Shown here: positions 12,289 to 29,654 of the stretch, in pieces
Layout of the letters: every line of letters begins with the position of its first letter
How positions within the stretch are numbered: position 1 is the first letter of the stretch
Origin: an uncultured SAR116 cluster alpha proteobacterium
GTDB lineage: Bacteria > Pseudomonadota > Alphaproteobacteria > Puniceispirillales > Marisalimonadaceae
Reading direction: 5' to 3'
NCBI GenBank assembly: GCA_902623995.1
Contig: CACNWE010000002.1
Coordinates: forward strand, 62,001 to 126,000
DNA: 64,000 bases
Made by a program: the position numbers and the translations under genes
The notes under the pieces: model-generated
Told to the model about the DNA's origin: nothing
The model's input: only the letters and a program-made list of their open reading frames with translations
Database searches by the model: none

Positions 12289-12304
12289 TATTCATTAATT
12301 TGTA

Positions 12305-12457: not shown

Positions 12458-12466
12458 TTTAAACTC

Positions 12467-13866: not shown

Positions 13867-13892
13867 ACCGATCAACAGTGAAAAAATTCTTA

Positions 13893-14033
13893 TCTTTTGT
13901 CTACCATTTTGTATTCTGCCTTTTATAATTAATGATAAGAAATACCATGCAAGGGCCACCCAGGGGGTGTATGCATAGGCACGTAATTTAGATCGCATTT
14001 TATTTTGCACCGTTAGTTGTACAAGTAACTAAT
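13893..14033. repeat. 142-bp direct repeat, copy 2
   Basis: Second copy of the sequence at 11606-11747, 2.3 kb away. On the minus strand this copy contains ACAAAATGGTAGACAAA, identical over 17 bases to the start region of the integrase gene, then a stop three codons later. The shared terminal palindrome and CACCC/GGGTG hairpin are conserved. Confidence 0.8.
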
Positions 14034-14083
14034 CTACTTCTAATTCAGCTTCAACAGCAGATGCATATTATTTGTATAGAAAT

Positions 14084-14113
14084 AAAAAACCCCACGTAGC
14101 TATACATGGGGTT
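14084..14113 (-). terminator. rho-independent terminator of the exonuclease operon
   Basis: On the minus strand AACCCCA pairs with TGGGGTT, extended by TAC/GTA around a short loop, followed by TTTTTTATTT. It lies 26 bp beyond the stop of the last gene (14139) and closes the 17217-14139 operon. Confidence 0.85.
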
Positions 14114-14138
14114 AATTTGTAAATCATAAAACTTATAA

Positions 14139-14600
14139 TCAGTGTTTAGTTCTATTCTTAAATTGTGTTCCTTTATTTTTAACCTTCTCTAAGTTTACAA
14201 GTTGTACATAATCGCTCATTGCCCTAACAAGACTAAAACATTCTGCAGATCCATCACTCATGTAATCTATTACTGAGGTGATGTTAATATCATACTCTTC
14301 ACCTAACTCAGTTATTTTAATGTCTGTAGGTAGCTCTCGATAATCTTTGTAGTTTGTTCTCATACGAACAAAATTTATGTATGACTCTAAAAGTATTGTT
14401 AACCTATGCAAGAGATCATTATTACTTAAATGAAGGTACTCTAGAAGGTTAAACATCCCATAGATAAATATTGACTCTTTATCTATATCGTTATCATCAA
14501 GTCGATCAATTAACTTACCAAACTCACTGTCAATTTTAGCAAGTTTGGAGGTTTCTTCTGGGGTGCTTCCCTTGACCCATTTCTCAAAATCAAACTTCAT
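14139..14600 (-). CDS. unknown 153-aa protein, tandem paralogue B
   Basis: Paralogue of the preceding gene. Shared features: an N-terminal F..W..G motif (FEKWVKGSTPEE), KL..ID, then DKESIFIYGMFNLLEYLH near residues 40-57 and RL.ILLE.Y..F. A Ser/Asp-rich loop before a Cys (DGSAECFSLVRAMSDYV) is also shared, and both proteins end in TKH. Predominantly helical, no signal peptide. I do not recognise the family. It starts three bases after its paralogue stops and is the last gene of the operon. Confidence 0.75.
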   Translation of the reverse strand: MKFDFEKWVKGSTPEETSKLAKIDSEFGKLIDRLDDNDIDKESIFIYGMFNLLEYLHLSNNDLLHRLTILLESYINFVRMRTNYKDYRELPTDIKITELGEEYDINITSVIDYMSDGSAECFSLVRAMSDYVQLVNLEKVKNKGTQFKNRTKH

Positions 14601-14603
14601 AAG

Positions 14604-15065
14604 CTAATGCTTCGTGTCTGTTAGAGTAAATAACAATAGATTTTCACGATCAGAATACACCATGTTCTCTATGAAATTTGATAAGCACTCAACTAAGTTA
14701 TAACAATCAGGGCTTCCACCCAAATCAGGATCAAAAAAACCATGCAAATGAATTTCTGATCGATCAAGAAAAGTTGTAATTGCAAGAGGTTTTAGATTGC
14801 AATCCTTATAATGTGAACTATTGCTTAAAAAAATCTTATATGTTTCAAGAAGTATCCTTAATCTGTCTAAATATCTTCGCTCATTCATATGGAGATAATT
14901 AAGCAAGTTTAACATTCCGTAAATAAAAATAGACTCTTTATCAATGCTTGGAAAATCATCGTTTAATTCACAAATAAATATCTTCATTCTCTGATCAATA
15001 TGCTTAAGTTTAATTGCATGTATTTCATCATTACCGTCTTTCCAACGTTTAAAATTCAAATACAT
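14604..15065 (-). CDS. unknown 153-aa protein, tandem paralogue A
   Basis: Same length as the neighbouring paralogue, with moderate identity by eye (roughly 30-35%) concentrated in DKESIFIYGMLNLLNYLH. Other matching points are FKRWKDG, KLKHIDQRM, RLRILLETYKIF and SPDCYNLVECLSNFIENM. No catalytic signature is evident. The start is adjacent to the stop of the 250-aa HNH/DUF3223-like gene, so translation is probably coupled. Paired paralogues in an operon often form heteromers, which is inference here. Confidence 0.75.
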   Translation of the reverse strand: MYLNFKRWKDGNDEIHAIKLKHIDQRMKIFICELNDDFPSIDKESIFIYGMLNLLNYLHMNERRYLDRLRILLETYKIFLSNSSHYKDCNLKPLAITTFLDRSEIHLHGFFDPDLGGSPDCYNLVECLSNFIENMVYSDRENLLLFTLTDTKH

Positions 15066-15818
15066 TTAAACCCCCATTGCAGAAAAAAGATTAAATTGGG
15101 CTGAGTGATTACCTGCAACAGGGACCTGAATTTCACTAGTTGCTGCAGATGTAACATTTTTAAACTTATAGGAAGCCCCTAGTTTTTGATTTAACTCTCT
15201 TGATACAAGAGACACATGCCCATCATTCAAAAATCGAGCATGATATTTTAAGAATTCATACTTGAAATCTGCATTATCAAAAGCAAGTTCTCCAAGATGA
15301 TCATATTTAAAAAGATTATCATCAAGTTCTGCTCCTTTACTTTTAAGAAAGCTATCACAAATAATATTAAATTCGTAAGGATGTTCATGGTGCAAGTGCA
15401 GATCCTTTTTTGGATAAGTGTTGCCTGTCTTTTGACAAACTAATCCAATTTTTTGAATTATCTTTTCTTTCTTGAAAAACACCTGATCTTTAACGATCTT
15501 TCGACATAATTTGTGCAGTATATCTCTTAAATTAAGATTCACTTTAATTGCGTTGTTTTTAACTGAAAAAGGAAAAAGCTCCATATTTTCACCAATAGCA
15601 GCAAAACATTTATTATTATAAATAGGATGTCTTGTGACTATAAATTTCTCTGGTCTAATACATTTAGACTTTAGAGGATGATTATTAAAAATCTGCTCTA
15701 GGTTCTTCCTAGAGCAAATATCTTTAATCTCACCTGCAACTGGTACAGTTTTTAGAAGGTAATTAGACCAGTCTAATACAGTATCCATTTTGGTTTCAAA
15801 TATTGAATTTCTATTCAT
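15066..15818 (-). CDS. HNH/DUF3223-like putative nuclease component
   Basis: 250 aa. The segment CQKTGNTYPKKDLHLHHEHP (residues 128-147) followed by FNIICDSFL, and later FLKYHARFLNDGHVSLVSRELN (location 189-210), fits the general plan of DUF3223 or HNH-like proteins: C-x-x-TG turn, His-rich metal site, helix, then YH..A.L....N. Candidate metal ligands are C128, H141, H143, H144 and H146. The first 110 residues have no recognised domain. It starts one base after the ExoI-like gene, indicating a tight operon. Nuclease activity is inferred, not demonstrated by a canonical full HNH motif. Confidence 0.55.
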   Translation of the reverse strand: MNRNSIFETKMDTVLDWSNYLLKTVPVAGEIKDICSRKNLEQIFNNHPLKSKCIRPEKFIVTRHPIYNNKCFAAIGENMELFPFSVKNNAIKVNLNLRDILHKLCRKIVKDQVFFKKEKIIQKIGLVCQKTGNTYPKKDLHLHHEHPYEFNIICDSFLKSKGAELDDNLFKYDHLGELAFDNADFKYEFLKYHARFLNDGHVSLVSRELNQKLGASYKFKNVTSAATSEIQVPVAGNHSAQFNLFSAMGV

Positions 15819-15819
15819 G

Positions 15820-17217
15820 TTATACCTCCAAAAATAATTTTGGGTTAGCTTTTAAGGCAAGTACACGAGCTTTGTATTCATTTAGATTATCTATAACCTC
15901 TTTAGACCATTTTGGATCAGAGCACACTTCATCATACGACTTCATAAATGAATCAAAAGTTACTCTTGATGCTTCAGGCTTTTCCAATTCGGATAATTCA
16001 TAATCTAAGACATTTTGAATCTCTTTGTTACTCATTACATCTCTATAATTATGAAGCATAATTATTTTAGCGTTCATGCCTAATCTATGATCTTCAAACT
16101 CATAACAAAGTTGATTTTTTGTTTTGGGATCACTGTCATGGAAAAGTTTAGAAATATAACTATCATTAGGCGAATGAAAGCCATCCTCATTATGATAAAT
16201 ATCACTAAAAACTCTTTCTTTCGGTTTCGAGTATTTAACTCTCATTTCTTCTTTTTTTGCCTGAATATACGCATCATCCTGTCGCAAAGTTTTTATTACA
16301 TGTTCAATTTTTCCATCAGGATAATTCGAGTAATGCTTTTTGAAAGTATTAGAATTATTTGGAAATAAAATAATAATACCTTTTGTTTTCATCACAGATA
16401 TTTTTACTTTTGATTTTAATTCACTGACTAATTCAGAAACTTCCCCGTCCCAATTAAACTCATCAGGAATTGTTATCATTATGTCCCAATTGTTCCAGTC
16501 ATAATTACTTAACCTACTTACTAACTGTGTACTAGGTCCATAAGTAGGTGAAAGTGTTGGCTTCATTAGTAATGGACTGTCTAATAATTCAAATCTATTA
16601 GCCTCGATTGACACATAATTAATTAATGAATTAATTTCTGGAACTATTTCATCAACTAAATGCTTAGATGTTATTGTTGTTAAGCAATCATCATCAGCAT
16701 GATGTTTCTCTTCTTCATTTTGAAGTTCCAAGCTAATTGTATTTAACGATAAACTATGTTTTCCTGTTTGATTGTTATAAAAATGAAACTTATCAGGTCT
16801 TAATGCTATTGCAGCTTTAAAAAAGTCCAAAGTTTCAAATATATTTCTATTCGAAGTCCGGTGAGGTGGAAACAAATTATCAAATGCATTTTGGTTAAGT
16901 ACCATAAGATCAAATTTAGAATGATGAAATGCAAGAGTTGGACTTGTTATTGACTTTAACCTGTTATCAATAAATTTAGCACCTTCATATTCGGTTACTC
17001 TATCTGGTGCATTTAAATCTTCCAAACTTGTATTTTGAACTGCTATTGCAGGTGGATCAGCAATTGTAGTTGAGTTAGGCTTAATTCTTTTTAAAATCTT
17101 ATGATTATGAAAATTTTCTACATCTGGAACTTCACCATATTCTGTTATTCCTACTCTTCCATGTAGCTGTGTTGTTTCTGTGTCTATATAAGTAATATTA
17201 TTATTAATATAAGTCAT
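15820..17217 (-). CDS. exonuclease I (SbcB)-like DEDDh exonuclease
   Basis: 465 aa, similar in length to E. coli ExoI (475). DEDDh residues are visible: D12 and E14 in YIDTETTQL, D103 in AFHHSKFD, H172 and D177 in KHHADDDCL with the H-x4-D spacing of SbcB. ALRPDKFHFY matches the ExoI block ALRPEGINWP, and DSYISKLFHDSDPKTKNQL resembles its C-terminal FFSDADR region. It should degrade single-stranded DNA 3' to 5'. It is much diverged and sits at the head of an island operon with unknown genes, so a defence or element-replication role is more likely than housekeeping recombination. Ribosome site TTAGGAG before ATG 17217. Confidence 0.75.
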   Translation of the reverse strand: MTYINNNITYIDTETTQLHGRVGITEYGEVPDVENFHNHKILKRIKPNSTTIADPPAIAVQNTSLEDLNAPDRVTEYEGAKFIDNRLKSITSPTLAFHHSKFDLMVLNQNAFDNLFPPHRTSNRNIFETLDFFKAAIALRPDKFHFYNNQTGKHSLSLNTISLELQNEEEKHHADDDCLTTITSKHLVDEIVPEINSLINYVSIEANRFELLDSPLLMKPTLSPTYGPSTQLVSRLSNYDWNNWDIMITIPDEFNWDGEVSELVSELKSKVKISVMKTKGIIILFPNNSNTFKKHYSNYPDGKIEHVIKTLRQDDAYIQAKKEEMRVKYSKPKERVFSDIYHNEDGFHSPNDSYISKLFHDSDPKTKNQLCYEFEDHRLGMNAKIIMLHNYRDVMSNKEIQNVLDYELSELEKPEASRVTFDSFMKSYDEVCSDPKWSKEVIDNLNEYKARVLALKANPKLFLEV

Positions 17218-17256
17218 TTTTTATACTCCTAAGGTATATTTCTTGTTGAGTTTAAG

Positions 17257-17345
17257 GAGAAAATGAGTTACATTTATATTGTGAAATATGGGGTTATAAC
17301 TCATGATCTCATAACTAAGGGTGGGCATTTTGTCTGCCCTTTTTT
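17257..17345 (+). ncRNA. candidate small RNA 1 with intrinsic terminator
   Basis: Plus-strand sequence with an 8-bp inverted repeat ATGAGTTA (17263-17270) / TAACTCAT (17297-17304), then a GGGCA...TGCCC hairpin followed by six T (17323-17345). No plus-strand gene lies upstream that would need this terminator, so an independent transcript is suggested, divergent from the ExoI-like gene. A 32-codon ORF from ATG 17263 is possible but has a poor SD spacing. Confidence 0.4.
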
Positions 17346-17353
17346 AATGGATT

Positions 17354-17764
17354 TTAAGTAAAATATTTAATGACATTTTCTTCATCCATTAAAATAGTTT
17401 CGTCCACGTCATTCACATTTACGAGAATGAAAGGACAATTTTCTTCGTTTTTTTTATATCCCCAGAGACAATATACTTTCTTGTATTTTGGAGAGATAAA
17501 TAATTTTTGTAGATTAAAATGATACTTTGGATTTGTTGTAATATAAGCCTCGAGTTCCATTTGTTCTTCAGTTTTTCCATTTCTTAAACAAACTGCAAAT
17601 GTAAATTCACCATAATTACCATTTTGTGTAATTCTAAACTTATGTTTTATGTGGTTTAGATTATGTCTTATCAAATCATGTAAAACTATGTCACCTTGTC
17701 TTAAAATTATATCAACAGTGTCTTCAGTAAATTGATTGATTACACTTTCATTATCATCAAACAT
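17354..17764 (-). CDS. hypothetical protein, 136 aa
   Basis: Soluble, mixed-composition protein with no recognised domain. It has an acidic N terminus, a central beta-rich part (YGEFTFAVCLRNGKTEEQME, then KKVYCLWGYKK) and an acidic end. ATG 17764 lies inside the end of the upstream 60-aa gene (8-bp overlap), so the two form a coupled pair. The short upstream/longer downstream arrangement recalls toxin-antitoxin pairs, but no family match supports this. Confidence 0.6.
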   Translation of the reverse strand: MFDDNESVINQFTEDTVDIILRQGDIVLHDLIRHNLNHIKHKFRITQNGNYGEFTFAVCLRNGKTEEQMELEAYITTNPKYHFNLQKLFISPKYKKVYCLWGYKKNEENCPFILVNVNDVDETILMDEENVIKYFT

Positions 17765-17939
17765 TAGTATTTCCAGAATTTGATTTTTGAAGAGAAGTTT
17801 CTAAGAACAAGACAAATTCTCTTATTTTCTCTTTTTTGATATGTGTAACAAGTGGGCCTTGAAACAATTGGGATTTGTAGAATCTTATTAAAGAAGTAAG
17901 GTTATCTTCTTTTTTATAAACATTAATATTGTTTTTCAT
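17757..17939 (-). CDS. hypothetical protein, 60 aa
   Basis: Small basic protein (MKNNINVYKKEDNLTSLIRF... HIKKEKIREFVLFLETSLQK) predicted to be mainly helical. GAGGTAAAAA before ATG 17939 is a good ribosome site. Overlaps the following gene by 8 bp. No family recognised. Confidence 0.55.
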   Translation of the reverse strand: MKNNINVYKKEDNLTSLIRFYKSQLFQGPLVTHIKKEKIREFVLFLETSLQKSNSGNTNV

Positions 17940-17974
17940 TTTTTACCTCATAATACTAAAAATTAATCTTGATT

Positions 17975-18071
17975 TAAAAGGCATCTTTAGTAATATGGGC
18001 CTTGTGAGGAGCTTCATTACTAAATGATGCTTTTAAAAAAAGAGCAACTATAATGGTTGTTCTTTTTTTTT
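17975..18071 (+). ncRNA. candidate small RNA 2: long hairpin plus intrinsic terminator
   Basis: A long imperfect stem (arms 17975-17994 and 18016-18035, about 18 pairs with two single-base bulges, 21-nt loop) is followed by a terminator hairpin AGAGCAAC/GTTGTTCT (18041-18063) and a run of nine T ending at 18071. Both read on the plus strand, with no upstream plus-strand gene. The long arms could instead act at the DNA level as an operator for the minus-strand gene pair starting at 17939. Confidence 0.45.
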
Positions 18072-18104
18072 ACCAAATTTAATTTAGCCCTGTCAAGTAA
18101 GTTC

Positions 18105-18266
18105 ATGAATAAAATTAAATTATTTTTCTTTATGGATCCAAAGATTGCAGATATATCGAATTTAATTTGCTGGATCCCAGTGAACTACATGTATTTTTAT
18201 TACTTGATGAATGTATTTTTATGTGTTAAATTGATCAAAATAAATTTACATACACCTCTAATTTAA
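18105..18266 (+). CDS. doubtful small hydrophobic ORF, 53 aa
   Basis: Begins MNKIKLFFFMDPKIADISNL and contains one hydrophobic stretch (VNYMYFYYLMNVFLCVKLI). No clear ribosome site, and the codons reflect AT-rich DNA. It ends 15 bp before the next gene. Listed because the 18072-18281 gap otherwise holds only the upstream region of that gene. Confidence 0.2.
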   Translation: MNKIKLFFFMDPKIADISNLICWIPVNYMYFYYLMNVFLCVKLIKINLHTPLI

Positions 18267-18281
18267 TTATGGTAGTGATAA

Positions 18282-19175
18282 ATGAATGAAATAGATGTAA
18301 CATATTTAACTGACGCTAAAAGAATTAATGTTTGTAGGGATTTAAAACTTTGGACGTTAGAGCAATTTAGTCAAAGCTTATCCGGTATGGTTAGTACCAG
18401 AAGCACCCAATTAATGTGTAGTGAAGACTCAAGGCTTAAACCACCATTAATACAAGCATTATCCTCTGTTTTTGAAAAGCCTGAATATCAATTTCTCGCA
18501 GAAATACCAAAAACCTACATCTTCAATGGTCGATATATTAACTCTGGTAGACTTTTCGCAAATGTTTTACAGAGTAATCCAATCATTGACGTAAAGTGGG
18601 GGGAGGCACATATTACTGACAATAAATCATTCGAACATTTACTGTCATTAATTGATGACTCTCATTTTAAAATAGGTCCTTTGACTGGTGAAGCTGACAA
18701 TAAATTATCATCAAATATTTCTTTTCAAGGTAGATTTCAATCTTTCGAAAAAAATAAATCTGCTTTTGATGATTTTTGTTCAAAAAATGAAGTTCAGGTT
18801 TGGGGTATCCCAGTGTTCAAAGTCTTCAAAATTTCTGAAATGGAAGTGCCCCCTGAGCAAGCTTCGTTTATCTGGAAAACAGGCGTTATTATAGAGTTTT
18901 ACAGATATCAAGAAGAGGTTGAAAAAGGTGGCAGATTTAATTTTCCCACACATGCAAATACTGTTGGTGAAGAACAATATTACGTTGATAACAAATATTT
19001 TGGCAACGAACCTAGATTTGAAAAACGTGCATTAGACTCAAGGCAGGATTTATTAACTGATGGTAACGTTAATTTTGGATCTTTGGAAATAGATAAAATA
19101 CTTTATGATAAATCAACTGCAACAGTTGCAAGAGCTTTACCCAACACTAAATCAACTGAAGAAAATAAATATTAA
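18282..19175 (+). CDS. unknown protein with possible N-terminal HTH
   Basis: 297 aa. Residues 10-65 (DAKRINVCRDLKLWTLEQFS ... SEDSRLKPPLIQALSSVFE) have the rhythm of an XRE-type helix-turn-helix, though weakly. The remainder is a mixed alpha/beta region with no recognised motif (QVWGIPVFKVFKISEMEVPP, WKTGVIIEFYRYQEE). It is transcribed away from the candidate regulatory hairpins at 17975-18071. A regulator with a sensing domain is one reading. Confidence 0.6.
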   Translation: MNEIDVTYLTDAKRINVCRDLKLWTLEQFSQSLSGMVSTRSTQLMCSEDSRLKPPLIQALSSVFEKPEYQFLAEIPKTYIFNGRYINSGRLFANVLQSNPIIDVKWGEAHITDNKSFEHLLSLIDDSHFKIGPLTGEADNKLSSNISFQGRFQSFEKNKSAFDDFCSKNEVQVWGIPVFKVFKISEMEVPPEQASFIWKTGVIIEFYRYQEEVEKGGRFNFPTHANTVGEEQYYVDNKYFGNEPRFEKRALDSRQDLLTDGNVNFGSLEIDKILYDKSTATVARALPNTKSTEENKY

Positions 19176-19177
19176 TA

Positions 19178-19855
19178 CTAGTTTATTGATTTTCTTTTTA
19201 GATCTTTGATGGAATAAGTCTTATCTCTCCATACAAATGTCTCAAATCCATCCCCTGTACTCATAAATTGATAAACTTCATCTAGTGTTAGATAATCTAT
19301 AAACATTTTAGATGGATATTCATAAGTAGGTGTAGAAATTTCAGTTCTTGAAAATGGTTCATAAGAAACATCATCAATTATATATACAGAATTAACTTCT
19401 GCGTAATGGCATGGACTTCCACAACTAACTAAATCATGTGTACTAACTTTTATTGCATTTAACTCCTTCATCAAGAAAGGAGTGTAATAATCATAAGTTT
19501 CTAATAAAATTATGAGAGGAGTATGATACCAACTTCTGCAATCGATGACTGACTGATCTTTCCAATTAAACTGAAGACCATAAAAATTTTGGATTTTTTT
19601 ATTTTCAATTTCTACTGCTTTGATTTCAACTTTACTTGCACCTTCCCTTTTCAAAATTGTAGATGGTATATAGATATGTTCATCTTCTTTTATAATTTTA
19701 AAGTCTTCAAACTTGATAATTTTGTTTTCAAAGAAGGCTGAAGCATGTTCATAGCATTCATCTGTAAGGTGGTTTCTAGTTTTTGCATTAGCAGCAGTAA
19801 CTGCTAATGCAACTAGGAGGTTAATAAATGAAAAGTAAAATACTTTTAGGTTCAT
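19178..19855 (-). CDS. secreted protein of unknown function
   Basis: 225 aa with an N-terminal signal peptide (MNLKVFYFSFINLLVALAVT, AANA-KT cleavage). The mature part has four cysteines (DECYEH, DCRSW, SCGSPCHY) that could form disulfides in the periplasm. No family recognised. Convergent with the 18282 gene, two bases apart. Confidence 0.65.
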   Translation of the reverse strand: MNLKVFYFSFINLLVALAVTAANAKTRNHLTDECYEHASAFFENKIIKFEDFKIIKEDEHIYIPSTILKREGASKVEIKAVEIENKKIQNFYGLQFNWKDQSVIDCRSWYHTPLIILLETYDYYTPFLMKELNAIKVSTHDLVSCGSPCHYAEVNSVYIIDDVSYEPFSRTEISTPTYEYPSKMFIDYLTLDEVYQFMSTGDGFETFVWRDKTYSIKDLKRKSIN

Positions 19856-19934
19856 AGTGATTATTATGAATTTAATTAAGTCTTGATTATGTATGAAATG
19901 AGGTAAGTTTGTGACAACTTACTTAAAACAATAT

Positions 19935-20444
19935 TTAGTAAGCATAAGACTGACTACCAAAAATGTATCTGAGTGTATTAACTATAAATAAGTAAACAGG
20001 AAATAAGTATGGTGTTAAATTTTGAGCGATTGGTTCAATAATGGGGAATAAAGGTAAATAAAAACCTTTATCTAAGACTAGCTTTAATAAAGGTATAAAT
20101 CCTAAAATCGCGATAATAGGGCACAAGTAAACAGCAGTATTCAAAATATATTTTTTAAATCTAAATTTTGATGATGTAATTTCTGATGATATTTTAAAAA
20201 CTCGAAAAGCATTTATGTTACACCACAAAACCATAAGTATTACCAAAGCAAGAGTTACGAAAAACAAAAGTTCACCCATGTAAAGTAGAGTAATAGAAGG
20301 ATTAGAAGTTAAATGTATTTGAATGTACTCAGCTACAAAGTTAAGACACATAAAATAAGATATTACCAAAGGTAAAACCCCAAAGTACCAAAACCATCTA
20401 TTCAATTTATTCATAATCAATATTTGATCAGTCATAATATACAT
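19935..20444 (-). CDS. multi-pass membrane protein
   Basis: 169 aa with about four hydrophobic segments (WFWYFGVLPLVISYFMCLNF, LLYMGELLFFVTLALVILMV, YILNTAVYLCPIIAILGFIP, LFPVYLFIVNTLRYIFG). ATG at 20444, with in-frame alternatives at 20435 and 20411. No family recognised. About 80 bp upstream of the signal-peptide gene on the same strand, so possibly co-transcribed. Confidence 0.6.
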   Translation of the reverse strand: MYIMTDQILIMNKLNRWFWYFGVLPLVISYFMCLNFVAEYIQIHLTSNPSITLLYMGELLFFVTLALVILMVLWCNINAFRVFKISSEITSSKFRFKKYILNTAVYLCPIIAILGFIPLLKLVLDKGFYLPLFPIIEPIAQNLTPYLFPVYLFIVNTLRYIFGSQSYAY

Positions 20445-20487
20445 ACTATCATGAACGGGTGGTTATATAAAGTCTTAGGAAGTTAGT

Positions 20488-20847
20488 ATGAGAAGTCTGT
20501 TTGAAAGCTTATTCACAACCAAAGATATAGTTAGGGCAAAGTATCCAAATGGTTGGGTTGGTTGGTTAAATGATAAAATGTCTGATGATGATGATGGCAG
20601 ATTAACTCGTTTCACCACTATGGATGGAAGGTACATGTATATCATAGTTGAGCGTTTAATTGATTATGGTTTTAGACCTCCAGAATTGATAGATGATACA
20701 ATCCATTTTCACGATTTTTATTTAAATGTTTATGAGTTCCGTGATTATGCTAAATATGATTGCTCAAAATATTACTCTAAAGCACCAGAATGGCTAAACA
20801 TACAACCTCAGCCTGAAAAAAAACTTCAAGAAATTGTTGAGCTTTGA
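20488..20847 (+). CDS. hypothetical protein, 119 aa
   Basis: Soluble, acidic and aromatic-rich (KYPNGWVGWLNDKMSDDDDG, DTIHFHDFYLNVYEFRDYAKY). No recognised domain. ATG 20488 after TTAGGAAGTTAGT, a usable ribosome site. No gene is seen in 20848-21002, which is AT-rich spacer before the convergent polymerase-like gene. Confidence 0.6.
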   Translation: MRSLFESLFTTKDIVRAKYPNGWVGWLNDKMSDDDDGRLTRFTTMDGRYMYIIVERLIDYGFRPPELIDDTIHFHDFYLNVYEFRDYAKYDCSKYYSKAPEWLNIQPQPEKKLQEIVEL

Positions 20848-21002
20848 CTAGATGCTTACGCTTTTAATGGTCTTGATTATTCATTTAATTCTTAAATTGT
20901 CTTACTTCTAATAAGTTTTATTTTGAACTTTCTAAATAATTTATAAATATATGTTTCTGGTACAATTAATAAAAACTTAGTTTAGGTAATGTTAACTAGA
21001 GT

Positions 21003-22367
21003 TTATTTATTTCTGTTTAACCATAAATCGTTTCTTTTATTGTAAGAAGAGTATGGACCACTTGAAGAAAGTATATCTGATAAATCTTCGCTTTCACTAA
21101 TCTCAGATATACTATGTGTTGCTACTAACTCTCTAGATATACCAATATCTCTGTGGAACCTCTCATAAAAGCCACGTCTCATTGCTTCTTCAAGCTCACC
21201 AGAATTTCCAAATGCATGGTGCATAATAAAACTATCATGAATGGGTAGTGCAGGATAATCCATTTTTGCAAATTGCAGCATTATACTTTCTGCAATAATA
21301 CTATCCTCAAATTGTAATCTGTTTCCTAAGCCAGTGAAAAATAGATTTCTAATAGGTTTATGAGCATTTAAAATTGCTTTTCTTAACTCTCTCCATGACA
21401 TCCCTATTTCATCAAGGTTTAGTTTAGATGGTTTACTATTCAATTCTGTATTAGCTTGAAACATTGCATTGAATGCTTCTTTAACAGTTTCACGATGTTC
21501 AGGTCCAAGAACTCGAGAATAGGCATCCTCACTTCCCAATTCATGATTATAAAGTGAATAAATCATATTTGGATTAAGCTGAGAGAAATCATGTTCTTGT
21601 GTTAGTTTTGAGTTAATAGTTATGTAAGGTCTATATTCACTCGGAACGTTTTGCCACCATCCTCTGTAAAATCTACCCCCTTCCCCAAATGAATTATTTA
21701 TGAAAATACGAGCTAAGACTTTTTGCGATAGATCAATTGGTTCTTTATCATCGTCTATTAACAATCTTTCTTGTAAAGCTTTGTATTCTTCATCCTTAAT
21801 TCTTAGATCAATCATATGTCGTGAAAAGCATGTGTTTATTTTCTTAAGGTTATCTCTCCACAATTCTGTATCCTCATCTTCTGAGTAAGATACTAGTATT
21901 CTTTTTTTATCAACAATGTTTCTTAGAAAGATAGTATTCGCATTAAGATTAGGTTTTAACGTAATAGCTGGATGTCCATCTAGTTGATCAAACATCTCTG
22001 ATAATTCATCTGTAGCTTTGAAGCGTGTTAAGCTTCCTTCCATTTTAATGTGATTATAAAGACCTTCTTTTGTAATTTGAATAAGGCTGAGTTTTTGAAG
22101 ACCGTCAAAGGCTTGTATAACCATTCGATAAGTAAGATTTGGATCACGATATATTTGAAGTGCTGAGTAGTAGTTTTTATTCTTTTGAATTGATGAATGA
22201 TAATCTTTATGTGCAAAGTGTTTCTTCCACAGATCAATTAAGAGATAGCTTACTGCGTAATTAAATCTAGCTTGTTCTTGTTCAGTTCGTGATCTAATCC
22301 TTTGTTCTTTTGCATCAATGTTGTGTGATACTTTTACGCATAATTCTTCGAATGAGTTCATACGCAC
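21003..22367 (-). CDS. compact family-A/T7-like polymerase palm protein
   Basis: 454 aa (GTG 22367, or ATG 22361). Residues 70-115 look like a winged helix. FGEGGRFYRGWWQNVP (227-242) precedes motif A, HDFSQLNPNMIYSLY with D260, which resembles Pol I DYSQIELR. Motif B follows as R292-ETV-K296-EAFNAMF, with the R-x3-K spacing of Pol I and T7 RNA polymerase. Motif C is ALPIHDSFIMHH with H377-D378-S, as in T7 RNA polymerase HDSF. No 3'-5' exonuclease domain is present, and only about 30 residues separate motifs A and B. It may be a replication, priming or transcription enzyme of the element; which nucleic acid it makes is unknown. Confidence 0.65.
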   Translation of the reverse strand: MRMNSFEELCVKVSHNIDAKEQRIRSRTEQEQARFNYAVSYLLIDLWKKHFAHKDYHSSIQKNKNYYSALQIYRDPNLTYRMVIQAFDGLQKLSLIQITKEGLYNHIKMEGSLTRFKATDELSEMFDQLDGHPAITLKPNLNANTIFLRNIVDKKRILVSYSEDEDTELWRDNLKKINTCFSRHMIDLRIKDEEYKALQERLLIDDDKEPIDLSQKVLARIFINNSFGEGGRFYRGWWQNVPSEYRPYITINSKLTQEHDFSQLNPNMIYSLYNHELGSEDAYSRVLGPEHRETVKEAFNAMFQANTELNSKPSKLNLDEIGMSWRELRKAILNAHKPIRNLFFTGLGNRLQFEDSIIAESIMLQFAKMDYPALPIHDSFIMHHAFGNSGELEEAMRRGFYERFHRDIGISRELVATHSISEISESEDLSDILSSSGPYSSYNKRNDLWLNRNK

Positions 22368-22451
22368 TATCTACAATAAAGAGTAATTTTTAACAATAAG
22401 GATTGTAATATTAACTAATAGGAGAACCCAGCAGGTCTATACTAAGAACAG

Positions 22452-22790
22452 TTAATTATATACTAGATAAATATAATTCATTAAAATCTCTATTGGATTC
22501 AACAAAGGATTTACAATCATAGCAAATATAATAATAGATAATATCGAAAAGTATTTAAAGTATTCAAAGAGATGATTTTCATCTTCAATAATTACATCTT
22601 TGCCTTCTACAACATATCTTTTTGGCGTTATTTCACCTTTTATCTTACCAAGTCTAATTAAATTGTTACGGATGGATTTTTGGCTACGGTTAATGTTTCT
22701 ACAGATTTTATAAATAGAATAGCCTTCTTCGAACATCTTAAGAAGTTCAGTGGTTTCCTGTTTTGTATATCTTCCCACTCTTCTAGGCAT
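22452..22790 (-). CDS. membrane-anchored HTH protein
   Basis: 112 aa. Residues 1-50 (RYTKQETTELLKMFEEGYSI, then YKICRNINRSQKSIRNNLIR) look like a homeodomain- or resolvase-type helix-turn-helix. Residues 80-110 are a hydrophobic segment (FSILSIIIFAMIVNPLL). This architecture fits a DNA-binding protein tethered to the membrane. ATG 22790 has no obvious SD. Upstream of, and on the same strand as, the polymerase-like gene (84-bp gap). Confidence 0.6.
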   Translation of the reverse strand: MPRRVGRYTKQETTELLKMFEEGYSIYKICRNINRSQKSIRNNLIRLGKIKGEITPKRYVVEGKDVIIEDENHLFEYFKYFSILSIIIFAMIVNPLLNPIEILMNYIYLVYN

Positions 22791-22915
22791 ATATTACTAA
22801 TATCATTGTTCAATAATTGTCTCAACATAAGTATGAGTTTGATTCATTCTTGCATGGTCGGATTTTTTTTAATATCATTTATATTCAAAATTTTAAATAA
22901 ATTAAGATCGCTCGA

Positions 22916-25093
22916 ATGTTAAAAAAATTATTTGTTCTGTTTATTTTATGTACTTTTCCAAATGCATTATTAGCTAAAAATGCATCAGAATTTTATGAAA
23001 ACGAAGATTATGATGCAGCCTACAGAGCTGCTTATGCAGACGCACTTGATGGAGACCCAGAAAGTAGTTTTATAATAGGCAAAATTTTAATTGATGGAAA
23101 AGGCTCTGCTGATGAAAACCTCAATAAAGGTATTCAATTCATAACATCAGCAGCAGAATCAGATTATTTAAAAGCTGTTATTTTTTTAGCCAAAGATTAT
23201 GAAGAAGGAAAATATGCTTCCAAAAGCTCTTCTAAATCACTTAAATACTACGAGCAATGCGAAAAACTTGGAGGCCCACGTTCTTGTAATAAAAAAGTTA
23301 CAAGTCTTAGAAAAAAATCTTTTGGTGCTATTAGTAAAAAAAGTTGTGTGAGATACAACAAAAAGGATATGGAAAATTTTTATAATATAGGACAATGCAT
23401 CGTCAGAAATTATTTAGAAGGCAATGCTTCATCTTATTTTTTAAAAGCTTTTGATAATGGCAACAAAGGAGCTTATTTATTAGCCTCTGAAAGGATGTTA
23501 AAAGAAAAAGATATTAACTTAATGCCATTGGTTAAAAGAATTCCGGAATTTAAAAGACAGGCATCTAAGTCCCAAAAAACAAAATTTATAAAACAAATAA
23601 AACGTTATGGATATGATGGAAGTTTTTGTGGAAAGCCAAAGAATAAAAGTTCTAAAAAAAATATGTTTGCGAAACCTAAAACCACTGGGGGTAATAACGC
23701 AGCTTGTGCTTTAGCAGCAGAAGCTGGGGATCCAATAGCTTTACCAATAGCGTATGAGTGGTGGAATAATGGTTCAAAAGGATTTCCAAAATCAAAGAAA
23801 TATGCACAGCAATTGATGGAAAATTTAGAAAGCAACGATGATGTTGATATAGCTAGTATTTTAAGAAAATTTGAGAATGATCCTAAAAAACATTTTAATA
23901 AAGCTATGGAATATATTAAATCTAATCCTCTAGCTTTAAAGATTGTTAGTAAGGAACTAAAGTTAGAAATTGAATTAATAGCAAATGGAGAAGCTCTTAC
24001 TTTTGCAAGCTCATTCCGAGACATTGCTGACGTTATTGAATACATAGATTGGAGAGCAGTCGATCCAAAAGTGTTAGCAAAATTTTATCATCTTTATAAA
24101 TTAGATCTTCTTGAACAAGAACATGATGGTGACTTAGATACACCAAGAGTTAAAAAAAATCTAAAAAAAATACCTTTTAAAAAGTCATTCGTAAGTAACT
24201 TGACTTCCCTTAAAAATGGAGGGGAATTGGCATATAATTATATGACTTCAGTTATTTTTGAAGATTGTAAAGCATTAGATTATGCCTTAAAAAACAATGA
24301 CGAGTTAGATATTCCAATGGACTTGATCCAAGAAGCCCAATCAACTTTAATTAACAAATGTGATCTAAATATTGCAAAAAAATCTATTAAAGAATTATTA
24401 AGAGTAGCCAAGAGAGATCTTGATTCTGTAAAAATCATTATTGAAAAAAAATTGAACAAAAAAAGACTAGACTGTAATGATTATAATGACTTTCTTCAAT
24501 TCAACAGAAATGATCCAAGTGATTTTGAAATTGATTATGATAGGAACAACGACATGTGTGTAAAATTTCCTGTTGTTTCCTATAAACTTGCAACCAAAGC
24601 TTACAAAGAAGAGCAATATGATGAAGCATATGAATATGCACTTAAAGGATGCGAGAATGAAGACCATCCATCTAAAGGATGTGATTTACTGGCAATGATG
24701 ATAATAGAAGGAAAATCATCAGCAACATCTGGTATGACTTATGATGATAAGATGATTGAAGCTATTGCATATGTTACAGAGGGTAGTGAAAAAAAAGACA
24801 TAAACAGTACAGCATTCTTACACAGTATCCTGAATCAACCTATGTTGTTTTCAAAATATTCTAATAATAAAATGGCAGATAAACTATTACCAGATTTAAA
24901 AAAATCCAAAAAACTTTCAGCTAAAATTCAGGTTCAACGGGCTTGTTTTTCTGCAGATCCAATAAAGGCATTACTCACAAATTGTAGACCTGCTTGTGCT
25001 TGGGCAAAGAAAACAAATAAGAAAAAAAATATTGATGTTGTGTCTAGATATTTGTTGCAAGATATAATTAATCAAAACGTATGTAAGCAGTAA
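22916..25093 (+). CDS. secreted Sel1/TPR-like repeat protein
   Basis: 725 aa. The signal peptide MLKKLFVLFILCTFPNALLA is followed by Sel1-like helical repeats, e.g. EDYDAAYRAAYADALDGDPE and SFIIGKILIDGKGSADENLN, and again near the C terminus (EEQYDEAYEYALKGCEN, KGCDLLAMMIIEGKSSA). About 16 cysteines, several in pairs, suggest disulfides in an oxidising compartment. It is convergent with the vWA-like/coiled-coil/protease operon. The protease has the same kind of N-terminal repeat, which suggests shared partners in the envelope. Confidence 0.75.
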   Translation: MLKKLFVLFILCTFPNALLAKNASEFYENEDYDAAYRAAYADALDGDPESSFIIGKILIDGKGSADENLNKGIQFITSAAESDYLKAVIFLAKDYEEGKYASKSSSKSLKYYEQCEKLGGPRSCNKKVTSLRKKSFGAISKKSCVRYNKKDMENFYNIGQCIVRNYLEGNASSYFLKAFDNGNKGAYLLASERMLKEKDINLMPLVKRIPEFKRQASKSQKTKFIKQIKRYGYDGSFCGKPKNKSSKKNMFAKPKTTGGNNAACALAAEAGDPIALPIAYEWWNNGSKGFPKSKKYAQQLMENLESNDDVDIASILRKFENDPKKHFNKAMEYIKSNPLALKIVSKELKLEIELIANGEALTFASSFRDIADVIEYIDWRAVDPKVLAKFYHLYKLDLLEQEHDGDLDTPRVKKNLKKIPFKKSFVSNLTSLKNGGELAYNYMTSVIFEDCKALDYALKNNDELDIPMDLIQEAQSTLINKCDLNIAKKSIKELLRVAKRDLDSVKIIIEKKLNKKRLDCNDYNDFLQFNRNDPSDFEIDYDRNNDMCVKFPVVSYKLATKAYKEEQYDEAYEYALKGCENEDHPSKGCDLLAMMIIEGKSSATSGMTYDDKMIEAIAYVTEGSEKKDINSTAFLHSILNQPMLFSKYSNNKMADKLLPDLKKSKKLSAKIQVQRACFSADPIKALLTNCRPACAWAKKTNKKKNIDVVSRYLLQDIINQNVCKQ

Positions 25094-25098
25094 GTAAA

Positions 25099-25812
25099 TT
25101 AATCAATAACTTCAGTTTGAAAATCAATTTGAAGACCTGTTTCATTTCCATTAAGTTTTAAATCATTCCAAAATTGCAATGTACTTTTGCTTCTATTTGG
25201 ATTTATAAAAGTAACATTAGGTAATGAGATTTCAGATAAATCATAGTTTTGGGTTATTTTTACAAAGTTTTTATTGAATGATTTTTTATCGTTGGGATCT
25301 ACATCATATGGTAAAAGAGAATGGAAAATATAAGTTGTTTGATTACTTAGGTTTCTTCCTCTGTAATAATTATCGAGACTTGATAGATGGTCAATGACAC
25401 TGTATTCATCACCACCTTTTGCTAACTCAGTTTGTATTATTTTGCTATATTTATTTTTAAAAATAACCATATCTTTTTTTGCAACTTGTGCGCTGCAATC
25501 AGTATCAACTAACTTGTCTAGAAAATTTTTTTTTGGACATCCCGGGACACATTGATCAATTTGAATTCTCGCATTTTCATTTGTGTGCGTAACAATTCTT
25601 ATTTTATCTCCTGCATTAAAACTTTGACTAATTTTATTTAAACCATTTATAAAAGCTCTCTTATCGTCATTATTTTGGTAACTTTGCCCAAATATGTTAA
25701 CTACTATTGGTTTGGTTTTTTCTTCTTTTAGACAATATTTTTCTGAAGCTAACGTTCCAAAGCTCATCATACTTAATATAAAAAGAATTGTAATACCTTT
25801 ATACAATTTCAT
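25099..25812 (-). CDS. secreted possible vWA-fold protein
   Basis: About 237 aa from ATG 25812 (MKLYKGITILFILSMMSFGT, a signal peptide). The mature part has the layout of a vWA-like Rossmann fold: KPIVVNIFGQSYQNNDDKRA, GDKIRIVTHTNEN, then TTYIFHSLLPYDVDP and VTFINPN. The first strand lacks the canonical MIDAS DxSxS. A CVPGCPKK cluster suggests a disulfide. The start lies inside the end of the upstream membrane-protein gene (14-bp overlap), so they are coupled. A longer in-frame start at 25905 lies in that gene and is unlikely. Confidence 0.6.
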   Translation of the reverse strand: MKLYKGITILFILSMMSFGTLASEKYCLKEEKTKPIVVNIFGQSYQNNDDKRAFINGLNKISQSFNAGDKIRIVTHTNENARIQIDQCVPGCPKKNFLDKLVDTDCSAQVAKKDMVIFKNKYSKIIQTELAKGGDEYSVIDHLSSLDNYYRGRNLSNQTTYIFHSLLPYDVDPNDKKSFNKNFVKITQNYDLSEISLPNVTFINPNRSKSTLQFWNDLKLNGNETGLQIDFQTEVID

Positions 25813-27076
25813 AACCTTCCTCTTTAAAATAATCAGGAGAAGCTTTTTTTCTACTATCATTATTAGCGTCTCTAAAAATTCTAATCTTTTCATTAAAAAC
25901 GTCATTTACCTGAGTTTTGAAATCGGAGATGAAATAATTTAGCTCATTAAGCTCATTATCTATTTCATGTAAGGTATCTTCTGCCATTTCACGATTTTGT
26001 TTAATTTTTGTATGTAGATCAGATTGCTTTTTATCGATACTAGCGATTTTATCATCAAAAGCTTTTTTTACCTTGAATAGCGCACTTCGGTCTTTATCAT
26101 AACTTCTTTGTGCTTTTTCATAATCAGGATGACTGTCATGTCTTACAAAAGATGCTACAAAACCACATACATAAACTGCAACGTTTATAAGTAAAAGAAA
26201 CATACCTTCAGGGCCTAAATTTACTTGCATTAATGTATCAAGCATACTGGGTGAGCTTACTGCTTCATTGAGACCCGGTGTGTCCGACTTTAGTAGTTTA
26301 TCTACATCAATATTAAATCCTTGATCGTTTTGATTATTTATTGAAACAAACGCTTGTCTCATTTTAGATAAATAAAATACTAAGACAACAACTAAACTAT
26401 TTAAAACACCCATAGATAAATAAGTATTTGCTTTGGAGACAGGTACTTCTTTTGATTGAGTCCTTTTAAAGGATGAACCTGTAATGTGTGCAAAGAAAAC
26501 TAACATTGCGCCCACACCAGTGGCCACAATAATCGATATTAATTGACTTGATTCAAAGAAAAGCTCAAATGCAAGACTATTCACAAAAACTTCTGCAAAG
26601 GCTAGTAAAATCATAAAAGGAACATAAAAATTTACAAACTGAGTGCTCAAGGGTCTTTGATTTACCTGAATTTTTATTGCTTGTAACGTTCTGTATGAAT
26701 CGTTTGCTTTTACTCTCACTTCTTCATATTTGCTACTACTCTCTCCAACAAGTTTTTGAATTTGTTCTCTTTCATTTTCGTGCAATTGGTCGGTTTCATC
26801 TAAAGATTTTGGCAATTGAAAATCTAGCTTTCTCAATACCTCGTTTTTTTCTTTTTCAAGTTTTGATATTTGTTTTTTTGCATCAGTTGAGAATTTTGAA
26901 TAAGCCTTAACAAGCTTATTTTTTTCTTCTAATTCAAACTTTGTCATAGATTTTGATGAAGAAGATGGGGAATTGGTTTTTCCCATTTCAGCGCCTTTTC
27001 TTTCAAGACGGTTTCTTTCTTGATCGTCTAATTTCAGCAGTCTTTCTAAAGACGATTTTGATATTGCACTTTTCAT
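25799..27076 (-). CDS. four-TM coiled-coil membrane protein
   Basis: 425 aa. An N-terminal charged coiled coil (about 45-135) is followed by four predicted TM helices near 150-172, 178-198, 218-238 and 291-311, with a loop of about 50 residues between TM3 and TM4. A second coiled coil runs from about 318 to 410 (RSYDKDRSALFKVKKAFDDK and on). Both termini are probably cytoplasmic. I do not recognise the family. It starts two bases after the protease gene stops and overlaps the vWA-like gene, so it may be the membrane hub of a complex with the secreted proteins. Confidence 0.7.
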   Translation of the reverse strand: MKSAISKSSLERLLKLDDQERNRLERKGAEMGKTNSPSSSSKSMTKFELEEKNKLVKAYSKFSTDAKKQISKLEKEKNEVLRKLDFQLPKSLDETDQLHENEREQIQKLVGESSSKYEEVRVKANDSYRTLQAIKIQVNQRPLSTQFVNFYVPFMILLAFAEVFVNSLAFELFFESSQLISIIVATGVGAMLVFFAHITGSSFKRTQSKEVPVSKANTYLSMGVLNSLVVVLVFYLSKMRQAFVSINNQNDQGFNIDVDKLLKSDTPGLNEAVSSPSMLDTLMQVNLGPEGMFLLLINVAVYVCGFVASFVRHDSHPDYEKAQRSYDKDRSALFKVKKAFDDKIASIDKKQSDLHTKIKQNREMAEDTLHEIDNELNELNYFISDFKTQVNDVFNEKIRIFRDANNDSRKKASPDYFKEEGYEIV

Positions 27077-27078
27077 AT

Positions 27079-28347
27079 CTACTTATACTTATAACAAAAA
27101 ATTCTACCAACTTCACGTTTTGCAATCAAACCAATCTCATCAGAGTCAAATTTTGTTGATCTATTCGTTGATCTGATTTTTACTATATTAGTCTCATCAA
27201 TCCATTTTTTCAACTGTACAGAAGATATCATCAAATTCATTGTGATGTTAGATATAAACACTTCATCTGCAATTTTATTACCATATGCCTTTTGAATTAA
27301 TTTTTTTACGTTATAACCACCAATTGTTTGACCCCTTATTAGACCATATTTTCCAAACACAGGTCCCCCGCTATTTCCACTTGCAATTGGAACACTCATT
27401 AAAACCCAGTTTGAATTAATTTTTTGGGTATTTATTAGCATCCCATTAGTAAGTGTAACAGAATCACTTTTTATAATTTCTGACGTAACTGGAAATCCAG
27501 CTGCATATAACGTCTCTCCAACTGTATGTTTTTTTGTATCAAATCTGGAGTAATATGGTGTCTTAGCATCCACTTTTAAAATAGCACTGTCCATCTTAAT
27601 ATTTGATCTTAATAGTTTCCCAACTCCCACCATCGAATTATAAACTATATCAATTTCTACACAATTTTTTATGACATGGTGATTTGTCAAAAAATGTCCA
27701 TTAGCAGAAATTGCAAACCCAGAACCCATACCGCTAGCAACAACATTTTTATTTATTTTAGGAAATATTTTTTTCCATGAATTCTTAACTTTCTCACTAA
27801 TAAGATAATTATCGTTTGTATCAATTTTTTCAGAATATTGATTTTCTAATGGTTCTGTTTGCTTAGGCTTTTGAAGTAATTTTTCTTTATTTTTTTGCTC
27901 AGTAATTTTTTTGTTTTTAGGTTTTTCAAATAATTTTTTTTTCTTTGTATTTTCAGCATATTTATCTTTATATTTTTTATAATTTGCACATTTAGATTTG
28001 ATATATTCAATTTTTGCAGGTTTAAAATATAGACCGCCTCTTTTATTATATTGGCTTTTTAAAAACTCAAAAGAACGGGCGTTACACATCTTAGCTGATA
28101 CTTCAAACCAATAAAAGGCTTCATCTATATCTCTACGTTTACCTTTTATAAGAAAAATTCCTAAATCTCGAGCTGCTTCACTATCACCTTTTTTTACTAA
28201 AGATTTTAACTTTTCAAACGCTAAATTTATTTTACCGTTATCATAGTCTTTTACAGCTTCTGCTCGTTTTGACTTAAATGAGTCAGAAAAAGATTGAGTG
28301 GTAATTAACAAACTCAGTATAAATAAAATATTTATTACAAATTTCAT
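27079..28347 (-). CDS. secreted trypsin-like serine protease with N-terminal Sel1-like region
   Basis: 422 aa. Signal peptide (MKFVINILFILSLLITTQSF), Sel1/TPR-like segment at about 25-120, Lys-rich linker at 120-175, then a trypsin-fold protease. The catalytic triad is H224 (FLTNHHVI), D253 (KMDSAILKV) and S326 (ASGNSGGPVF). No PDZ domain follows, unlike DegP. First gene of a three-gene operon with the coiled-coil membrane protein and the vWA-like protein, 13 bp after the integrase stop. Periplasmic or surface proteolysis is expected; the target is unknown. Confidence 0.85.
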   Translation of the reverse strand: MKFVINILFILSLLITTQSFSDSFKSKRAEAVKDYDNGKINLAFEKLKSLVKKGDSEAARDLGIFLIKGKRRDIDEAFYWFEVSAKMCNARSFEFLKSQYNKRGGLYFKPAKIEYIKSKCANYKKYKDKYAENTKKKKLFEKPKNKKITEQKNKEKLLQKPKQTEPLENQYSEKIDTNDNYLISEKVKNSWKKIFPKINKNVVASGMGSGFAISANGHFLTNHHVIKNCVEIDIVYNSMVGVGKLLRSNIKMDSAILKVDAKTPYYSRFDTKKHTVGETLYAAGFPVTSEIIKSDSVTLTNGMLINTQKINSNWVLMSVPIASGNSGGPVFGKYGLIRGQTIGGYNVKKLIQKAYGNKIADEVFISNITMNLMISSVQLKKWIDETNIVKIRSTNRSTKFDSDEIGLIAKREVGRIFCYKYK

Positions 28348-28359
28348 CTATAAATATTC

Positions 28360-29502
28360 TTAAATTTTACTCATCTCATCAAGCAAATTTTTTAAAGAAA
28401 ATCCGTATCCGTAGTTTTCACCTACAGATTGATTTGACCATCCCCCTATTTGATCAATCATTTCGCTTGGACAATTAGTTGCTCTCAACCTATCTCGCAT
28501 ACTATGTCTAAGACTATGAATAACACATCTATCCGCAGTTCTGGGTCTGAGCCATTTATTTAATGCAGCACTAGCTGAGTTCGTATAGCAATAATCTTTC
28601 ACGGTATAATGTGGAAAAGCAAACTCACCCTTTACATTCATGAGTATTTGTTTAGCAGCCCATAGTGATGATCCAACAAGTGGTATCTGTCTTTGACTAG
28701 ATTTTGTTTTAAGTCTTCTTGCAGAATTTGGTGTGATATTTAAATAAGGTATCTCTTCATCCAATTTTATATCACTAATTTTCAAACCAAGAGCTTCAGA
28801 TAATCTCATACCAGTATCTGATATAAGAGCAATTAACCATCTATTAGGGTCATTGATCTTCATGCACTCTTTTTGAATGTCTCTAATAATGTCTATTGGT
28901 ATTGGTTGACGTTTTATAGAGTCTTCAAGATCTGGTATGTAGGTCTTAGCAAAAGCATTTTTAAAACTTAATCCGTATTCTTGAATAGATAAATTTATGA
29001 TGGCTCTTACGATGGCGAATACTCTTTTCACTGTTGAAGAGACAAGTCCCCTATCTAGTAAATGATCTCTAAATTGAGCTGCATCAGTCGTTGAATAATC
29101 ATTTAAATATCTGTCCTTTAATAGGGCAATAACGTCTCTTACAGCCCTTCTAGCGGCTCTAAAAAAGATCTCACCCTTTCCTTTTCCTTTTAACTTAAAA
29201 TACGTTTGAAGAGCGTCTGAGAGCTTTGGATTTTGCGCTCTTTTTTGGGGTGTTTGATGGGTAAATTGATAAGGAAATAGGAGTATATTTTCATCTTTTA
29301 CTCGCAAGTAAAACCAATGTTGATTTAATTTGTGTAACAGATTTTAGCTTTGATAAAATGCATCTTTAATAGACTTAGTTTTCAAGCTTTGTACAATGCG
29401 ATTTTGCGAATAATGTTGGCGCACATCTTTAGGAATTTGTTTAGAGAAATAATACACACCTCTTTTTTGGAAGATATATTTACATCCTAATTTGTCTACC
29501 AT
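28360..29502 (-). pseudogene. tyrosine recombinase/integrase with in-frame stop
   Basis: Phage-type integrase of about 380 codons from ATG 29502, beginning MVDKLGCKYIFQKRGVYYFS, a start I recall from alphaproteobacterial island integrases. A single TAA at 29344-29346 interrupts it after codon 52; the frame continues normally on both sides (AFYQS-stop-NLLHKLNQHW). The catalytic part is intact: Arg in DTGMRLSEALGL, HxxR in HSLRHSMRDRLR, and a final Tyr in GGWSNQSVGENYGYG. A downstream TTG at 29307 could give a 315-aa product. Either a recent CAA-to-TAA mutation, a sequence error, or restart. Lies beside the tRNA-Gly target. Confidence 0.85.
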
Positions 29503-29579
29503 TTTGTCTACCCATCAAAAGTTAATACTTCTAAAAGGTTGAATATTTAAGGAAATCTAGGCATCCCGCCGAAGTCGAT

Positions 29580-29654
29580 TGGAGCGGGCGAAGAGATTCG
29601 AACTCTCGACATTCTCGTTGGCAACGAGATGCTCTACCACTGAGCTACGCCCGC
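29580..29654 (-). tRNA. tRNA-Gly (GCC)
   Basis: Complete cloverleaf: acceptor stem GCGGGCG/CGCCCGC, D-arm GCTCAGTGGTAGAGC, anticodon stem TCTCG/CGAGA with loop TTGCCAA (anticodon GCC) and T-arm with GTTCGAATC. T is the discriminator base and CCA is encoded. It is the integration target of the island; the integrase reads away from its 3' side. Confidence 0.97.
29586..29613. repeat. right attachment-site core (28 bp)
   Basis: Perfect copy of 11472-11499, lying inside the intact tRNA-Gly gene. Together the two copies define the element ends. Confidence 0.75.

Follow-up and report, generated by a model that had tools for sequence, protein, structure and literature searches.

We identified, within a 64,000-nucleotide stretch of the genome of an uncultured SAR116 cluster alphaproteobacterium (the window), an integrative island that encodes a minimal family-A polymerase of the family phrog_4756, which is a probable member of the TV-Pol family. 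An earlier note on this DNA had described a compact polymerase-palm protein with family-A/T7-like motifs on a mobile island. We confirmed that observation as a whole, from the open reading frame (ORF) and its motifs to their conservation and the mobile island, and the interpretation placed on it was supported as well, with a palm fold found, both catalytic Asp residues invariant and a real hybrid character. The note had offered four functions (minimal DNA polymerase, RNA polymerase, primase or template-independent polymerase) without choosing among them; the evidence favors a primase/polymerase for replication of the element. The note was made without knowledge of TV-Pol, the name under which proteins like this had been reported in 2008.

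The polymerase ORF occupies positions 21003 to 22367, as had been reported, on the minus strand, which had not been stated. It encodes 454 amino acids (aa) when counted from a GTG, the numbering used here, but the ATG at 22361, giving 452 aa, is the likely real start, since several close homologues begin at the Met at residue 3 (MNSF...). D260-F-S-Q (motif A), R292-x3-K296-EAFNAMF (motif B) and H377-D378-S (motif C) are at the residues given earlier, and these motifs (D260, R292, K296, H377 and D378) are beyond chance. The N-terminal domain (residues 1 to 130) is encoded at 21978 to 22367 and the polymerase core (residues 131 to 423, from the VIA-align ranges) at 21099 to 21977. Within the core, the hairpin Arg R232 (GGRFY..WWQN.P, aligned to GRLS..LQNIP of Pol I) lies at 21672 to 21674, the motif A catalytic Asp D260 at 21588 to 21590, the motif B or fingers RxxxK at 21480 to 21494, and the motif C catalytic Asp D378 at 21234 to 21236, all on the minus strand. 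Pfam and NCBIfam scans agreed with the earlier statement that the polymerase has no exonuclease domain. A different contig of this genome (G000:C26) carries a second copy, 63% identical.

The polymerase matched phrog_4756, a PHROGs family of unknown function (E 1.8e-37, residues 43 to 401), and nothing meaningful in Pfam, NCBIfam or PADLOC. The best Pfam match (TPR_Sec16, E 0.04) was dismissed as chance, as was ribosomal protein L20 (E 0.18), the sole match of the single sequence in a phmmer search of the PDB; no match to any chain of the PDB was obtained with the A1 profile at E up to 10. The family model matched 47 of 136 genomes of the order at E <= 1e-10 and none of 14 control genomes, and a sample of the phylum contained the family in 24 of 398 genomes (1e-5); 23 of these, the own genome included, belong to the same class and 1 lies outside it. 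A scan of named genomes gave 303 relatives in 359 candidate stretches, and the best 80 of these, giving 79 loci, were mostly from SAR116 and Rhodobacteraceae. A viral scan with the single protein gave nothing, and a later profile scan of viral contigs gave 52 relatives in 129 stretches; tblastn against phage records returned 118 matches at E up to 10, many of them weak. When eight homologues or candidates were tested singly, seven were phrog_4756 (ICP1 gp100, p092 of Shewanella phage KASIA, the qdvp001 and J2-1 proteins and three bacterial proteins) and the eighth, Ma-LMM01 gp030, was phrog_34692. To our knowledge, this branch has no known activity. A literature search, with subscription journals mostly outside its scope, showed no study of it among the papers listed, and the phrog_4756 family does not appear in the accessible parts of PMC11348598 and PMC7824862.

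For the conservation analysis we took profile hits at E <= 1e-10 of at least 380 aa, leaving out shorter and weaker ones. This gave 158 sequences, with some loci present twice, and removal at 75% identity left 81 rows, seven of them from phages. The earlier note had staked its reading on the conservation of D260 and D378; these two residues and K296 are identical in 81/81 homologues, as are R246 and Y283. Counts for other positions are R292 (80, one Lys), R232 (80, one His), H377 (80), D281 (76) and S379 (67). The polymerase and an 87%-identical homologue, the closest tested pair, had a dN of 0.062 and a dS of 0.55, which indicates purifying selection. We also built a tree from the palms of 51 viral and 74 cellular members (125 in all; viral contigs supplied 44 of the viral ones). 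Its viral/cellular label changes about 8 times versus a shuffled mean of about 40; many deep branches are weak and the placement of long rows is unsure. Viral and cellular sequences are largely separate, with several exchanges, and viral descent was rejected.

The predicted structure contains the palm fold whose absence would have spoken against the earlier reading. All 50 of the VIA matches listed belong to the family-A DNA polymerase/T7-mitochondrial RNA polymerase superfamily, while Foldseek against the PDB found nothing under 0.001 (best, 1.3e-3). The palm is RRM-like and carries the two conserved Asp residues, as the TV-Pol description requires, with D378 between strands 374 to 376 and 379 to 383. 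Ahead of it is a beta-hairpin (strands 219 to 222 and 230 to 234) bearing R232, and the fingers, which in TV-Pols are inserted behind the first strand of the palm, carry D281 and the RxxxK and have a helix at residues 289 to 304. Helices 165 to 183 and 192 to 203 of the model are candidates for the two antiparallel helices of the TV-Pol thumb. At the N terminus, DSSP assigned helices at 29 to 52, 64 to 68 and 80 to 92 and strands at 58 to 60, 96 to 100 and 114 to 118. Winged-helix regulators (PerR, Fur, the CodY C terminus and ZitR) occur among the Foldseek rows only at E >= 0.1, and these rows presumably cover the polymerase's N-terminal part. The element order and these rows hint at the winged-helix-like N terminus proposed earlier.

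Profile comparisons bore out the hybrid family-A/T7 character. With hhalign, the 81-row profile aligned to six single-subunit RNA polymerases at E 3.2e-5 (probability 72.5%) over 100 columns, all of them near motif C, and to 25 bacterial Pol I sequences at E 0.0033 (probability 9.8%) over 188 columns that run from the hairpin past motif A to motif C; these E-values are those of single comparisons, for which Pol I versus RNA polymerase gave 0.54 and integrase controls gave 0.2 to 0.43. In the Pol I alignment the hairpin Arg is in register, as are motifs A and C, and WWQN(V/I)P stands opposite LQNIP, with motif B misaligned. None of 30 members matched the Pfam model of Pol I (PF00476) at E up to 1, and 1 of 30 matched PF00940, at E 0.16 only, short of its gathering score. 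A PF00940 search matched 6 of the 398 genomes of the phylum; it gave no match in the own genome, but its controls gave none either, so this result is little informative.

Residues of the sugar gate set the family apart from Pol I. Two fingers positions were counted from the conserved Lys, with no structural alignment behind them. The first, K296+8, which is Tyr in Pol I and T7 RNA polymerase (T7 Tyr639), is Asn in 42, Gln in 25, Phe in 7 and Tyr in 0 of the 81 rows; the second, K296+4, presumably the F762 position of Pol I, is Asn in 52 and Phe in 1. The residue equivalent to Pol I E710 in the hhalign alignment, N265, is His in 41 rows, Asn in 26, Phe in 5, Gly in 3, Tyr in 3, and Gln, Met and Glu in 1 each. 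E710 is given as the sugar-gate Glu position of Pol I in the accessible part of PMC7581432. Because the sugar-gate residues of Pol I are lost, we predict lower selectivity against ribonucleotides, and ribonucleotide use by this branch is plausible.

These results bear on the possibility that the protein is a small single-subunit RNA polymerase, with genes of the island or of phages as its templates. The profile is nearest to such enzymes at motif C, the HDS triplet and the near absence of Glu at the E710 position agree with this role, a mitochondrial RNA polymerase heads the VIA rows (in a tie with DNA polymerases), and one homologue matches phrog_414, "RNA polymerase," at 0.0055. However, the protein is about half the size of the known enzymes examined (among six rows, the four longest have 830 to 879 aa), its hairpin is Pol I-like with QN(I/V)P, and the Tyr639 position of T7 holds Asn or Gln in 67/81 rows. 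We consider this explanation unlikely.

The mobile island proposed earlier was confirmed by a tRNA repeat, an integrase and an empty site in relatives. It spans about 18.1 kb (11466 to 29654), from the integration site at tRNA-Gly(gcc) (29580 to 29654, minus strand) to a degenerate tRNA-Gly copy at the far end (11466 to 11540, minus strand) with a 28-bp exact match and the rest imperfect. This copy is nearly full-length and, at 40.2 bits as a tRNA, is still above the Rfam tRNA cut-off. A tyrosine (phage-type) integrase gene (28360 to 29307, minus strand; Phage_integrase 1e-14, phrog_1 2e-35) lies upstream of the polymerase gene on the same strand. In 2 of 29 relatives' loci, L232 and L233, the left-flank gene is 11 and 83 bp from the tRNA; in the remaining 27, the left flank was not seen within the sequence available, at most 1.5 kb. 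The tRNA-Gly site is an apparent integration hot spot, with second, partial copies on the same contig in G067, G002, G009, G036 and G020.

The island has 19 non-nested ORFs of at least 100 aa. Pfam searches (limits E 10, 0.01 and 1) matched none of them to a helicase, primase or SSB family, and no D5-type helicase of the kind expected beside a PolA-SSB primase was found among these 19. The neighbor at 20488 to 20847 was considered as an SSB partner in an operon, a proposal that is unsupported because the gene is convergent, not codirectional, and has no Pfam match up to E 1. Near the polymerase gene we found no iterons or clear origin, only few and weak repeats, and promoter-like sites were not above shuffles (14 versus a mean of 15.5).

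The island also carries an ExoI/SbcB-like DEDDh exonuclease gene (15820 to 17217, minus strand; RNase_T 7.4e-7, Exonuc_X-T_C 1.2e-6) that matches PADLOC RTasSbcB at 2.5e-13 and lies in a block common to L081. A module at 22916 to 28347, common to L069 and L082, looks like conflict-system cargo. It encodes a trypsin-like peptidase that matches Sel1 weakly, a long protein with the look of a secreted one, and two others. Such cargo, together with the type I restriction genes of L153 (Leisingera aquimarina, where the polymerase gene lies near an integrase gene), the helicase and PLD genes of L167 and the RTasSbcB match, would suit a defense or counter-defense polymerase, carried as cargo and performing template-independent or abortive DNA or RNA synthesis. 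The polymerase itself has no PADLOC match up to E 1, it recurs with an integrase while other neighbors vary, and it is found in lytic phages, and we regard a defense role as quite improbable.

We examined the neighborhoods of relatives in two locus sets that share at least four loci besides the window. In the first set of 28 loci (27 named loci of at least 15 kb, from 79 fetched, plus the window), an integrase of at least 200 aa was present in 20, and in 17 of these 20 it lay upstream on the polymerase strand. In the second set (21 loci, window included), 15 had an integrase, only 7 of them with that placement. An integrase of any length was found in 19 of the 27 named loci. A resolvase-like cluster was present in 8 of the 27 and adjoins the polymerase gene in L121, L152, L160, L167 and L170; one of the eight genes was tested with Pfam and matched PF00239 at 9.8e-25. 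Resolvase-like neighbors would fit replicating circles that multimerize. Among the 27 named loci, L121, L141, L149 and L154 have a fragmented polymerase gene or a fragmented extra copy of it, showing that the polymerase is not always kept.

The 52 viral loci include an integrase in 2, a KASIA-like primase in 12 and a single-subunit RNA polymerase in none. ICP1 gp100 has structural genes on one side and the NrdD region on the other; the setting in qdvp001 is comparable. ICP1 has an annotated primase/helicase (gp57) and DNA polymerase (gp58) of its own, and the KASIA annotation lists a Pol I, a primase, a helicase and an RNA polymerase in addition to its phrog_4756 protein. Because phage carriers own a polymerase and a primase, a primase role is not obligatory there. 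As separate observations, one viral contig carries three polymerase copies that are identical over the tree portion (L283, 1849 to 11123), and a GIY-YIG nuclease and a MobE homing endonuclease are annotated directly after the phage polymerase gene in L086 (6103 to 7218) and L089 (6159 to 7214), for which Pfam found GIY-YIG only below the cut-off in the L086 gene and nothing in the L089 gene.

The replicases and primases already owned by phage carriers, along with the ExoI-like nuclease in the same island, could instead point to a role as a second DNA polymerase, in repair, lesion bypass or synthesis linked to recombination and not in initiation. We give this explanation little credence, as the polymerase lacks an exonuclease domain of its own and the commonest neighbors in the named loci are the integrase and the resolvase-like gene.

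We think it probable that the protein is a TV-Pol-type minimal polymerase that primes and copies the excised island. The integrase would excise the island, and the winged-helix-like N-terminal domain would dock the enzyme on island DNA. The palm (D260 and D378 with two metals), the hairpin R232 and the fingers R292 and K296 would then start a strand de novo on the melted template and extend it, so that the circle could be copied, with host enzymes completing the copying, before reintegration or transfer. We infer excision, origin binding, de novo priming and the replication role; the fold, the catalytic residues, their conservation, the island and the integrase are supported by the sequence and the model. 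We counted for the replication role the palm fold, the invariant catalytic residues, purifying selection, the TV-Pol features, the integrase/resolvase setting, the relative CcPol-MP, a primase in the accessible literature, and the lack of Pfam matches to helicase, primase or SSB families among the island ORFs. Counted against it were the lack of a known activity for this branch, the lack of an encoded helicase or recognized SSB partner, whereas CcPol needs MP in the same accessible literature, the modest profile links and Foldseek match, the lack of a clear origin, the phage carriers' own replication genes, the 7/15 integrase placement and the fragmented copies.

A bolder reading, which we offer tentatively and consider somewhat unlikely, is that phrog_4756 forms a distinct class of initiators that work as a single protein. 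In these, a winged helix that binds the origin would be joined to a palm with a rebuilt sugar gate (His/Asn replacing the Pol I Glu, and Asn/Gln replacing the fingers Tyr) and would prime de novo with ribonucleotides or mixed nucleotides, with no SSB or helicase partner. Ocean islands would use such an enzyme, and so would lytic phages such as ICP1, where it would make origin-specific primers alongside a complete replisome. If true, it would be a living intermediate between the DNA and RNA polymerases of the superfamily. A predicted fold and catalytic residues can now be given to a PHROGs family of unknown function that also occurs in phages, including ICP1. Since the family falls between Pol I on one side and the T7/mitochondrial RNA polymerases on the other, its substrate would bear directly on the divergence of DNA and RNA synthesis in the superfamily, and also on the spread of islands in SAR116-like bacteria, to which its nearest named relatives belong.

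Elsewhere in the window, the ORF at 55547 to 56215 (plus strand) reads like ribosomal protein S16 and has a long Ala/Pro/Glu repeat tail with 45-bp DNA repeats, and the genes of a low-GC stretch at 41384 to 48599 look glycosyltransferase-, methyltransferase- and asparagine-synthase-like.

Among known systems, Pol I (PF00476) shares the palm fold, the DFSQ motif A and the hairpin GR..QN(I/V)P with this polymerase but has exonuclease domains that are absent here and a Glu at E710 that is retained in 1/81 homologues, and its Pfam model is unmatched. The T7-like and mitochondrial RNA polymerases (PF00940) share the palm fold and the HDS motif C, where the profile score is best, but they are about twice as long, and the match to them is below the Pfam cut-off.

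The TV-Pol family of minimal polymerases was described in 2008 by Iyer, Abhiman and Aravind (PMC2579912); proteins of this kind were thus predicted then, and this branch still carries the label of unknown function. Our comparison is with the features given in the text of that paper. Five of the eight features described are present here (the RRM-like palm with two Asp, the hairpin Arg, the fingers Asp and RxxxK, an integrase/resolvase/transposase neighborhood and no fused nuclease), and none of the eight failed; we filed the phrog_4756 polymerase as a probable TV-Pol, in the subset with an extra N-terminal domain and integrase/resolvase neighbors. Alphaproteobacteria are prominent in both. Unlike the N terminus predicted there, which is all-helical, the one here has strands, and an ExoI-like gene is present in the island and in one relative, L081, whereas TV-Pol was described without conserved nuclease linkage. 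In Microcystis phage Ma-LMM01 (49 ORFs of 250 to 1100 aa from 150 of 162 kb), the best hhalign alignment was to gp030, which lies beside transposases, with an E of 0.0028 and a probability of 10.8; the second-ranked ORF had an E of 0.02. The TV-Pol paper names no gene. In the accessible parts of PMC7581432 and PMC10061031, CcPol, placed in the TV-Pol group, is a demonstrated primase with its partner MP, which it requires for priming, and other TV-Pols accompany D5 helicases. Like CcPol-MP and the other PolA-SSB primases of SCC elements described there, the present protein is a truncated family-A polymerase on an integrative island; unlike theirs, its island has no D5 helicase or recognized SSB partner, and where CcPol retains the E710 and F762 equivalents, this family has mostly His/Asn (67/81) and Asn (52/81; Phe in 1).
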